Shown in pieces: positions 2,823-57,090 of a DNA stretch of 64,000 bases. Numbering within the stretch: position 1 is the first letter of the stretch; the number at the start of each line of letters is the position of its first letter. Location: assembly GCF_002335805.1 (NCBI RefSeq), contig NZ_NISU01000002.1, positions 200,838 to 264,837 on the forward strand, read 5' to 3'. Below the pieces are notes generated by a model, which did not search any database, was not told the origin of the DNA, and saw only the letters and a list, made by a program, of their open reading frames with translations. The DNA comes from Bacillus sp. FJAT-45350. GTDB taxonomy: Bacteria; Bacillota; Bacilli; Bacillales; NISU01. A program made the position numbers and the translations under genes.

Positions 2823-3270
2823 CAAAATCCCCCAATCATTTAGTGAAAAAACTTTTTTTAATATTATAGACGTTGTTCAACAGGAGTTCTTCGTTCATGG
2901 ATAATTCAATGCTCTATAGAAAAACTATTACACTAGTCCGTATTGAACACTATAAAACAGATGATATATTATCATCTACTAAGAGAAATGTTTAACTTGT
3001 ACTATTATACTATCAGATTAAAATAAGGAAAAGGAATAGGAATTATAACTTCAAAATATTACCTCAAATTTCATGAAGGAATTTTCAAAAGTGAGTTGAA
3101 TAGTTTAGTTATTGGAATTAATGGGAAAGATATATGTATGAGAGGAAATTTATAAAGTCTAGTCTAGTTTAGCACTAATTATTTGTAAAAATTAGTAGTT
3201 TAGTGTAAAATATAGGATAATAATTAGATTTTTCGAACGACCTCTGAAAAATGGAAAGGGGTGAACTTCA
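2823..3270. other. Intergenic region between divergent mqnE and the Spo0E-like gene
   Basis: This 448-bp AT-rich gap must hold the divergent promoters. I see no gene in it. One perfect 7-bp inverted repeat, ACTAATT (3174-3180) with AATTAGT (3190-3196), lies about 75 bases before the plus-strand start and might be regulatory. Confidence 0.5.
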
Positions 3271-3468
3271 TTGTTAAACCGTTCATATCGTAAGAAGGAA
3301 TGTATGGAACAGATTGAGTTGCTTAGAGAAAAAATGATCTCAACTGCTATGTTATACGGAATGAATCACCCGCTTGTCTTAAAATACAGTCAAGAAATAG
3401 ACCAGAAGCATAATTCTATATTAGGAGGAGAATATTCCTCAATAAGTCATCTACAGAAAGGCTCATAA
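3271..3468 (+). CDS. Spo0E-like aspartyl phosphate phosphatase
   Basis: This 65-residue protein resembles the Spo0E family, two-helix hairpins that dephosphorylate Spo0A~P and hold back sporulation. The family signature SQEID (usually SQELD) is present in HPLVLKYSQEIDQKHN. It starts at TTG with gggtg about 7 bases upstream; the next ATG (3304) lacks a ribosome site and would remove part of the first helix. It is monocistronic. The target response regulator is inferred from the family. Confidence 0.8.
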   Translation: MLNRSYRKKECMEQIELLREKMISTAMLYGMNHPLVLKYSQEIDQKHNSILGGEYSSISHLQKGS

Positions 3469-3567
3469 TTATAAGCAAGTAACTTGAATGATTATTGAAA
3501 TAAGATGTATACTTGTAGAAATTAGAGATGCCTATTCTTGAATAAACATCTTGAGGAGGAATATAAA

Positions 3568-6060: not shown

Positions 6061-6112
6061 AAAAAGAAGTACTAGCAAAAGGTAAACCACCTTTTGCTAG
6101 TACTTCTTTTTT
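6061..6112. terminator. Strong terminator after yuiA
   Basis: A perfect 23-bp stem (from AAAAAGAAGTACTAGC to its complement) with a 5-nt loop and T-tract; symmetrical enough to act on both strands. Confidence 0.9.
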
Positions 6113-11546: not shown

Positions 11547-12251
11547 TTGGAAATTGGTAAAACCTTTTTACGAAGATTATGTATGACTTTATTATTTAGT
11601 GCTGCCTTATTAACAACATTTCAATCTATTTCAGGTGTAAGCGCAGAAGAGCTATCGAAATGGATGACAAAGCGTGTTGCAGCATTCGGTATTTTTGAGG
11701 AATCTTTAACTACAGCATCTAATCATCAGACTAGATTTGATACAGTTTTAGCAATGAAAACACTACCAACTATAAGTAGACAAGAAAAGGCAATGTCTCA
11801 CGAAGTAGTTGCCTCTGCTCCACCAACATTAGAAGAAGCAATTGATTGGAGTCAATATCCTTCAAATACAGTTGTAGCAACAGGATATACTGCGGGGTAC
11901 GAGTCCACTGGAAAAAATTCAGATCATCCTGCGTATGGAATTACCTTTTCAGGTGTACAAGTAAAACGAGACTTGTACTCAACAATTGCAGCAGACCCTA
12001 GTGTTTATCCGATAGGGACAATTCTTTTTATTCCGGGATATGGATACGGAGTAGTGGCTGACACAGGCTCAGCAATTAAAGGAAATATTATCGATTTATA
12101 TTATGATACAGTAGAAGAAGTATTTGAAAACTGGGGCAAGCAAGAAGTAGAAGTATACTTAGTAAAAAAGGGTGAAGGGAAACTAACAGAAGAAGACCTA
12201 ACAGCCCTCAACGAAAACGAAGCCGTCCAAGTATTTAGAAAACAATATTAG
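11547..12251 (+). CDS. yuiC: Exported 3D-domain protein (YuiC)
   Basis: The 234-residue product has an N-terminal signal or anchor segment ([14 protein letters not shown]) and a C-terminal 3D domain, named for three conserved aspartates, seen in [21 protein letters not shown] and IIDLYYDT. 3D domains resemble the lytic transglycosylase MltA fold; YuiC of B. subtilis is a stationary-phase cell-wall protein of this kind. TTG 11547 has gaggagtg upstream. It normally follows yuiB, but here the acyl-CoA operon lies between. Confidence 0.85.
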
Positions 12252-12259
12252 TTAGAAAG

Positions 12260-12291
12260 AAAAAAGGTTGCACTATACCTTTTTTCTTTCT
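12260..12291. repeat. 32-bp hairpin terminator, first of two identical copies
   Basis: AAAAAAGGT and ACCTTTTTT flank a short loop to give a terminator for yuiC. The same 32 bases recur exactly at 12405-12436, on the other side of a structured repeat element. Confidence 0.85.
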
Positions 12292-12295
12292 CACT

Positions 12296-12404
12296 AAGCG
12301 GTGAGCGTAGTCGTTGTAATGTTTTAAGCCATTAGGAGTGGTTTTCTCCTAATGGCGCACAACGAACGGAGCCATCGCCATCATTGAGAGACCTAAAGGG
12401 ATAC
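12296..12404 (-). ncRNA. Structured repeat element, copy C
   Basis: Read on the minus strand, this carries the conserved blocks ATGGCTCCGT, GCGCC and TTAAAA. The outer stem is TCGTTGT/ACAACGA (12359-12365 with 12311-12317). The inner stem is an 11-bp perfect hairpin (12328-12338 with 12346-12356) with loop AAAACCA. Stem sequences differ from copies A and B but pairing is kept. It lies about 90 bases after the stop of the minus-strand gene at 12493-13296 and is flanked by two identical 32-bp terminators. Transcription is inferred. Confidence 0.6.
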
Positions 12405-12436
12405 AAAAAAGGTTGCACTATACCTTTTTTCTTTCT
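12405..12436. repeat. 32-bp hairpin terminator, second identical copy
   Basis: Exact direct repeat of 12260-12291, 113 bp further on. Confidence 0.9.
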
Positions 12437-12440
12437 AACT

Positions 12441-12481
12441 AACAAAGAAGCATGCAGTTACTCACTACATGCTTCTTTGTT
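12441..12481. terminator. Terminator of the cobalamin-binding-type gene
   Basis: A 14-bp perfect stem, AACAAAGAAGCATG/CATGCTTCTTTGTT, just after the stop of the minus-strand gene. Confidence 0.75.
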
Positions 12482-13349: not shown

Positions 13350-13515
13350 TAAAGAGATTTTTACAAAAGGCCCGTTTTTGACCTTTTGTCCAAGTCTTGA
13401 AGCAATGAGAGAAGTCACTACCTCTTTTAAAAGGCTTGAAAGGGGTGGGTTTCTCCTTTCAAGGCGCGTAGCGAACGGATCCCATTGCCCTCTCTATTGA
13501 AGACTTGTGTACCAA
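13350..13515 (-). ncRNA. Structured repeat element, copy A
   Basis: On the minus strand it begins near ACACAAGTCTTCAATAG (about 13508) and contains GGGCAATGGGATCCGTTCG, GCGCC, a 9-bp hairpin (13435-13443 with 13455-13463) with GAAACCCA in the loop, then TTTTAAAA. An outer stem pairs TCGCTAC (13474-13468) with GTAGTGA (13421-13415), including a G-U pair that exists only in minus-strand RNA. A hairpin ACAAAAGG/CCTTTTGT (13363-13389) closes the end. It starts right after the yuiD stop. Identity with copy B is high through the core. Confidence 0.65.
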
Positions 13516-28242: not shown

Positions 28243-28285
28243 ATCTGAGACTGCTGATAAGGTTCAATATAGTGGATTCAGGAAA

Positions 28286-28327
28286 AGGCTGCTGGAAAAG
28301 TGGAAAGACACACTTTTTCAGCAGCCT
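28286..28327 (+). terminator. Terminator after the oxidase-like gene
   Basis: GGCTGCTGgAAAAGTG pairs with CACTTTTtCAGCAGCC. Confidence 0.8.
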
Positions 28328-28400
28328 TAGTAAATCTACGTTTCTTTTTTGTCTTGAGAAAATCCTATTATCATATTAAAAAAAATGGAGGAGATAGCAT

Positions 28401-36858: not shown

Positions 36859-37015
36859 AACGAACAAACGAATGGGAGTTTAAAGCAAAACATTTATTGG
36901 GATTCCTCTCGCAGTTGGTACGATACTAAATATAAATTGATATTTTTAAATATTTCCATTATCATAAAGGTAGAAACTAGTAAAAAGTTTCTATGAATTA
37001 ACTATAAATAATTTT
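36859..37015. other. AT-rich spacer before the riboswitch
   Basis: No gene or terminator is clear here; the riboswitch promoter should lie in this stretch. Confidence 0.4.
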
Positions 37016-37195
37016 TGGAATTCTAGGTGTCTAATAGACTTAATAGGGAATCTGGTGGAAATCCAGAGCTGTCCCCGCAACTGTAAGTGTGGATGAAATG
37101 AGAAACCACTGTATAAGTAACTTTACCGGTGCTTATACGGGAAGGCTCAGAGTAAGAAGAAGCACGAGTCAGGAGACCTGCCTAACTTCCATAAG
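37016..37195 (+). promoter_or_regulatory. Cobalamin (B12) riboswitch
   Basis: The B12-box elements appear in order: AATAGGGAA, GGTGGAAATCC, AGCTGTCCCCGCAACTGTAA, GGGAAGGC and GAGTCAGGAGACCTGCC. The distal T-rich hairpin at 37225-37272 is the likely expression platform. It controls the [2Fe-2S] protein gene at 37335. Confidence 0.95.
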
Positions 37196-37224
37196 TTTCA
37201 TTTCTTCGGGGTGAGAGAAGTTGA

Positions 37225-44724: not shown

Positions 44725-45030
44725 TTATTGAATGAAAGTAGGAAGGATTTACGTCTTATGCAGAAATGCGTGGGACGTTTTTTTTTTGCTTAGGAAATAA
44801 AAAAATACTTAAGCTGTGGATAAGTGAAGATTATTCAAAGAAGGGCAATGGTTCCGCGCACTACGAGTATAGCGCCAAGAAACCCACTTGTCACTATACT
44901 TTAAAACATATCACTGGCTTCGCACATAACTTTAAACAAGATGGCTTTGAGGTTTTTTGTTCTTTTGTATAAAGTTTCTGAATTTTGTCTAAGTTAGCTA
45001 GTATTCAGAATTTAATAGAGGAGAGAAAAA
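44725..45030. other. Intergenic region after phaJ
   Basis: This 306-bp gap contains a diverged copy of the structured repeat (about 44843-44925). The only open frame here (44766-44972) covers that repeat and is not credible as a gene. Confidence 0.6.
44843..44925 (+). ncRNA. Structured repeat element, copy D (diverged)
   Basis: In order on the plus strand: GGGCAATGGTTCCG, GCGCC (44872-44876), AGAAACCCA and TTTAAAA (44900-44906), the same order as copies A-C. The stem is AGTATAG (44867-44873) with CTATACT (44894-44900), a different position from the outer stem in the other copies, plus a short CAAG/CTTG. It lies 120 bases after phaJ, on the same strand. Confidence 0.5.
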
Positions 45031-50169: not shown

Positions 50170-50315
50170 GGACACAAGTCTTCAATAGAGGGTGCAATGG
50201 GCTCCGTTCGCTATGCGCCTTGAAAGGAGAAACCCAGTCCTTTCAAGGCTTTTAAAAGATGTAGCGATGCGAAGCTGGGACAAAAGGTACCTTTTGTTCC
50301 AGCTTCTTTTTAATG
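50170..50315 (+). ncRNA. Structured repeat element, copy B
   Basis: It starts GGACACAAGTCTTCAATAG and contains GCAATGGGCTCCGTTCG and GCGCC. A perfect 12-bp hairpin follows (50217-50228 with 50238-50249) with loop GAAACCCAG, then TTTTAAAA. The outer stem is TCGCTA (50208-50213) with TAGCGA (50262-50267). It ends in a strong terminator, GAAGCTGG...CCAGCTTC plus five T (50271-50313), that also serves convergent ytlD. It lies 85 bases after ytkD on the same strand. Confidence 0.7.
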
Positions 50316-56978: not shown

Positions 56979-57090
56979 CTCTTATCCCGAGTTGGTGGAG
57001 GGACAGGCCCTATGAAACCCAGCAACCTACATCTAGATATAGATGGTAAGGTGCTAACCTGCAAGACATTTGTCTTGACCGATAAGAGGC
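56979..57090 (+). promoter_or_regulatory. SAM-I (S-box) riboswitch
   Basis: The S-box core is complete: CTTATCCCGAGTTGGTGGAG, GGGAC-AGGCCCTATGAAACCC, AGCAACC, AAGGTGCTAA and GATAAGAG. It controls metK through the terminator that follows. Confidence 0.96.

Follow-up and report, generated by a model that had tools for sequence, protein, structure and literature searches.

What kind of element occupies the gap between yuiC and a btuF-like gene in Bacillus sp. FJAT-45350, and how did it come to lie between two identical terminator sequences? The locus is part of a 64,000-nt window (the whole stretch of DNA that was analyzed) and holds a structured element, copy C, for which the original prediction had reported exact 32-bp flanking repeats at 12260–12291 and 12405–12436; both the coordinates and the identity of these repeats hold. 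We conclude that copy C is probably a non-autonomous mobile DNA repeat in which a hairpin core, E, abuts a palindromic terminator hairpin, T.

Structure of copy C and its flanking hairpins

The features of the window to which we refer are the following (unstranded where no strand is assigned):

6061–6111, unstranded: solo T-type hairpin without element, with an AAAAGGT...ACCTTTT core in a longer stem
12248–12297, unstranded: complete terminator-type hairpin T, TTAGTTAGAAAG-AAAAAAGGT...ACCTTTTTT-CTTTCT.ACTAA, abutting the 3' end of the element and overlapping the yuiC stop codon
12260–12291, plus strand: 32-bp exact repeat, copy 1
12298–12378, minus strand: core E of copy C, ~81 nt, with stems P1, P2 and P3, P3 loop GAGAAAACCACTC and one-sided bulge CTTAAAACATT (cmsearch, fold, family alignment)
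12311–12317, minus strand: element-strand 3' arm of P2 (plus-strand letters TCGTTGT), partner of 12359–12365 (fold, family alignment)
12322–12327, minus strand: TTAAAA motif within the one-sided bulge that separates P3 from P2 (family alignment)
12328–12356, minus strand: inner stem P3, GCCATTAGGAG/CTCCTAATGGC, with its loop; stem letters differ among copies and loop letters are kept
12359–12365, minus strand: element-strand 5' arm of P2 (plus-strand letters ACAACGA; fold, family alignment)
12379–12404, minus strand: spacer from the partial T to the 5' end of the element, whose length and sequence differ from copy to copy
12400–12442, unstranded: second, partial T copy on the 5' side of the element, 43 nt, 93% identical to the first
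12405–12436, plus strand: 32-bp exact repeat, copy 2
12441–12481, unstranded: ordinary terminator hairpin, not related to T, where the btuF-like gene ends
13402–13488, minus strand: second element copy, separated from copy C by the btuF-like gene (covariance model)
28285–28328, unstranded: solo T-type hairpin without element
44845–44930, plus strand: third copy, diverged (covariance model)
50194–50275, plus strand: fourth copy, in the last bases of which a terminator hairpin (50271–50306) begins (covariance model)

The letters of copy C are, in order, GCGATGGCTCCGT-TCGTTGT-GC-GCCATTAGGAG-AAAACCA-CTCCTAATGGC-TTAAAACATT-ACAACGA-CTACGCTCACCGC, and the minus-strand reading of the structured element is GCGATGG...CACCGC. 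It folds with z = -5.0 on the plus strand and -3.6 on the minus strand, and its core scores 85.5 bits with covariance model R1 and 84.4 bits with model R2. The two stems that had been predicted to pair perfectly are both present, at 12328–12338/12346–12356 and 12311–12317/12359–12365. The 32-bp repeats are not free-standing: each makes up most of a T hairpin and lies within a 43-nt stretch that matches at 93%. Together they form the core of a longer inverted repeat around copy C, the outer arms of which (12248–12268/12422–12442) are inverted copies of each other without mismatch over 21 nt and bracket the element, 195 bp as a whole. No further copy of the 32-bp repeat was found elsewhere in the window at up to 3 mismatches (expected 0).

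Copy number, pairing and distribution of the family

A 120-nt blastn query recovered 18 copies in this genome, and a covariance model built from 17 copies recovered at least 145, four of them in the window (at 12298, 13402, 44845 and 50194). Counted among the best 150 candidates scored per genome, two Halalkalibacter oceani genomes hold at least 132 and at least 142 copies and genome G050 at least 148, giving at least 132–148 copies per host in the four genomes counted in full. The core of the family is 81–88 nt long and forms a single long hairpin that carries a bulge on one side. Among 84 distinct aligned copies 94.5% of cells are paired, against 73.4% in shuffles, percentages that lean towards structure because the alignment was fitted to it. 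Double changes number 405, where shuffles average 101.5 and sliding the pairs yields no more than 95, and 21 of the 23 stem pairs are changed on both sides; in a MAFFT alignment of the first 17 copies, compensatory change was already present in 14 of 23 pairs. The proposal that different stems keep the same structure, made from a few copies, applies to the whole family, and the selection on structure that it invoked is borne out by the strong compensatory change across the 84 copies. G-U pairs account for ~1.7% of paired cells (31 of 1776, an uncalibrated figure), a low share from which we infer a structure kept as DNA on both strands.

Rfam has no entry for the family: a search of the whole window at the gathering threshold gave no match for the element, and a relaxed threshold on five family loci returned only subthreshold microRNA matches, which are noise. 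Elsewhere in the window, Rfam places Cobalamin and SAM riboswitches at 37007–37199 and 56979–57088. Clustered copies were also observed. In this genome, a tandem array of nine units with 129-bp spacing lies at G000 C1:393542–394658 (L053:2043–3159), where seven of the nine units are identical in score and flanks and the array ends in one complete terminator hairpin. Three elements precede an lgt-like gene, and four lie between phosphoglycerate-mutase-like and enolase-like genes (L009 and L010).

The element occurs in 15 of 397 genomes of the same order, representing 9 of 135 genera, and model R2 matches 2 of 398 genomes across the class, this one included. Named hosts are several Halalkalibacter, Alkalihalobacillus deserti, Evansella and Bacillus solitudinis; the hosts are salt- and alkali-loving Bacillus relatives, and the distribution is patchy. 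Plasmids, phages and viral contigs gave no match to the element, so no vehicle was seen. Searches of the literature on Halalkalibacter repeats, EFAR and terminator-inserted MITEs in Bacillaceae turned up no account of the family, which is, to our knowledge, an undescribed, high-copy and apparently recently active one of alkaliphilic Bacillaceae.

Terminators, element-free sites and replication strand

Copies sit mostly at the 3' ends of genes; 111 of 112 are intergenic and only 8 lie in divergent gaps. The 60 nt that follow E fold with z < -2 in 71% of cases, compared with 20% of those that precede it and 10% of controls, and an inverted repeat scoring at least 10 is found after E in 53%, before it in 4% and in shuffled sequence in 0%. 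Hairpin T mostly starts 0–5 nt past the 3' end of the element, and the 60 nt before the element have no such excess. Judged by eye, many T hairpins share an inner part, AAAAAGGT...ACCTTTTT, enclosed by an outer stem that differs from locus to locus. T-like hairpins also stand at the yuiC sites of B. solitudinis and G050, both of which are without the element there. A long direct repeat (score of at least 20) flanks 9 of 110 copies, against 0.18% of cross-locus pairs; these repeats, that of copy C included, are mostly 32–38 nt of T and mostly begin at the end of the element. They are found at a minority of copies, and no flanking duplication is evident at most. Three paralogous small gene pairs, more than 90% alike, each carry an element between their two genes (L135, L107 and L145). 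A larger transposon at these loci was considered and rejected, as the longer common flanks are the paralogous gene pair itself.

The yuiC-btuF gap measures 241 bp here and 44–112 bp in 10 relatives with the same gene order. All 10 are without the element and at least nine of their gaps fold as one terminator hairpin, a comparison that the original prediction had called for; the relative with the 112-bp gap (L294) may hold a second terminator hairpin. Five further relatives that are without btuF also have no element at the yuiC site. Element-free relatives with both 32-bp copies, which would have made the duplication older than the insertion, were not seen among the 10, and the predicted insertion with terminator duplication is thus supported by these gaps. 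Given the third hairpin in the gap (12441–12481), the old yuiC terminator may be one of the two T copies, or both T copies may have arrived with the element. As the relatives belong to other genera or families (53–69% YuiC identity), the insertion is placed on this lineage and is not finely dated.

Strains of H. oceani differ at orthologous sites. In four pairs (L237/L253, L239/L264, L240/L265 and L241/L266) one strain carries the element and the other a different terminator, and in L245/L260 one strain is without the element at the same site; some of these differences could reflect losses. In H. oceani, element and terminator travel together as a ~167-bp unit, so the role of T (target, cargo or both) differs between copies. 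In strain 214.1.1, at least 13 copies have cores of equal score, and those that were read are nearly all letter-identical, pointing, on sequence grounds, to recent spread. Two other rearrangements were observed between H. oceani strains: the whole element is inverted at one site (L251 and L274), and the P2-P3 hairpin is gone from one strain in a precise loss that leaves GCAATAGCTCCACTCATTGC (L234 and L269).

E is oriented with the replication fork in 108 of 148 copies in G050 (73%, p=2e-8), where replichores were set from a dnaA-based origin, and in 79 of 115 copies in this genome (69%, p=7.5e-5), where they were inferred from GC skew. Gene direction does not explain the bias, since in this genome it is ~2:1 alike in tandem-leading, tandem-lagging and convergent gaps (convergent 21:11). 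In the two genomes tested, the E-sense strand is mostly the lagging-strand template. A passage of PMC6006769 describes IS608 and ISDra2 as targeting the lagging-strand template. The orientation bias of E towards this template favors single-strand entry at terminator hairpins.

Candidate mechanisms and known repeat systems

The element probably moves as single-stranded DNA, recognized through its own hairpin, and probably enters terminator hairpins that are exposed as single strands. Entry would have left a footprint at copy C and about eight others, a 32–38-nt stretch of terminator repeated in direct orientation, which almost always begins at the end of E and ends at the T-tract. No mobilizing protein was recognized. 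A host or IS protein could act in trans, or replication could switch templates at the hairpins. Mobile DNA that dispenses with a transposase, or uses an as yet unrecognized enzyme, is an unlikely though conceivable form of such movement: hairpins would be copied via the lagging-strand template into terminator hairpins, the whole terminator (32–38 nt) would be duplicated in a manner resembling CRISPR adaptation, and solo terminators would result after recombination of the repeats.

A classical MITE, which has lost the interior of an insertion sequence, keeps its terminal inverted repeats and relies on a DDE transposase supplied in trans, would resemble the element in several respects. Bacterial MITEs (bcr1 of Bacillus cereus, ERIC, RUP, SPRITE) are likewise short, non-coding, dispersed, intergenic and foldable, the element is polymorphic between strains as they are, some of its copies have direct duplications, and inverted repeats enclose both copy C (the perfect 21-nt arms) and, imperfectly, the H. 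oceani unit from GAGCTTGAGACAAAA to TTTTGTCCCAGCCTC. Yet the inverted repeat of copy C is the terminator itself; such repeats are specific to a locus or subfamily, and the family appears to have no common end. Insertion sequences usually make target duplications of a few bp, whereas those seen here are terminator-sized (32–38 nt), lie at targeted terminators and are absent at most copies. DDE cut-and-paste does not predict an orientation that tracks replication, and a non-systematic look noticed no longer relative in which two family ends enclose an open frame. We therefore hold a MITE to be improbable. A REP/REPIN-type repeat moved by a RAYT (Y1 HUH) transposase would share the small, structured, high-copy, intergenic hairpin and the replication-strand logic of Y1 single-strand transposition, including the lagging-strand bias that the passage of PMC6006769 reports for IS608 and ISDra2. 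In this genome, a RAYT-like Y1 transposase gene (L273, 193 aa, 2914–3495) stands ~20 nt from a degenerate element copy (2795–2890), near comM- and dprA-like genes. Such an origin nonetheless seems quite unlikely: E has a longer hairpin (81–88 nt, not 20–40), its core starts with GCAATGG, and no conserved GTAG or CGTC tag is found at either end. IS200-type transposases (PF01797) were absent at E<=1e-5 from two element-rich genomes, H. oceani 214.1.1 (G398) and G368, and are present, RAYT-like genes among them, in many element-free ones; Y1/RAYT was rejected as the mobilizer because PF01797 presence does not track the element.

The terminator-like hairpin after E on its own strand, the strong covariation and the position of most copies at gene 3' ends would all suit a structured RNA gene or 3'-UTR element, in which E and T are transcribed as an sRNA or mRNA tail ending at T and are kept for stability or termination. 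Against this reading stand the very few G-U pairs, the lack of an Rfam match at the gathering threshold in the window (with microRNA noise below it at five loci), the tandem arrays of identical units and the strain polymorphism at single sites. E runs in the same direction as neighboring tandem genes in 38 cases and in the opposite direction in 29, and this independence of genes ranks the RNA reading low, as a decidedly doubtful one. Direct repeats of the terminator, like tandem arrays, are prone to slippage, and one might suppose no mobile element at all, only repeated terminator duplication with chance flanking of a conserved intergenic hairpin; with E present, its sequence conserved, in at least 145 unrelated places, and with one terminator at the empty sites of relatives, we consider this extremely improbable.

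For the non-autonomous mobile repeat that we favor, the nearest known kind appears to be EFAR of Enterococcus faecalis, which would be alike in behavior. Venditti et al. reportedly described EFAR in 2007 as a ~170-bp intergenic unit of two adjacent stem-loops with many copies, and its targets are said to be unrelated terminator-like stem-loops, which occupy its empty sites. EFAR has no known transposase, and we know of no report for it of the 32–38-nt terminator duplication and replication-strand bias measured here. The ~167-bp H. oceani unit is similarly an E hairpin plus a T hairpin, T follows E in most copies here, and the target sites are unrelated stem-loops (the H. oceani empty sites, the yuiC-btuF gap); EFAR differs in host group, and the likeness is one of structure and behavior. 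Petrillo et al. (2008, PMC2267715) describe Efa-1/EFAR as a double stem-loop of 163 bp and Bhal-1 of Bacillus halodurans as a 74-bp structured intergenic repeat with 36 copies. Bhal-1, from a related alkaliphilic Bacillus, may by its description, the basis of this comparison, belong to the same family as the element.

The covariance model of the family is new and fills a gap in Rfam. How EFAR-like and REP-like repeats move is a long-standing question that the copies, empty sites and strand bias of this family open to direct testing. The element remodels the ends of genes and their terminators. Through insertion at terminators it can change read-through and expression across many operons simultaneously.
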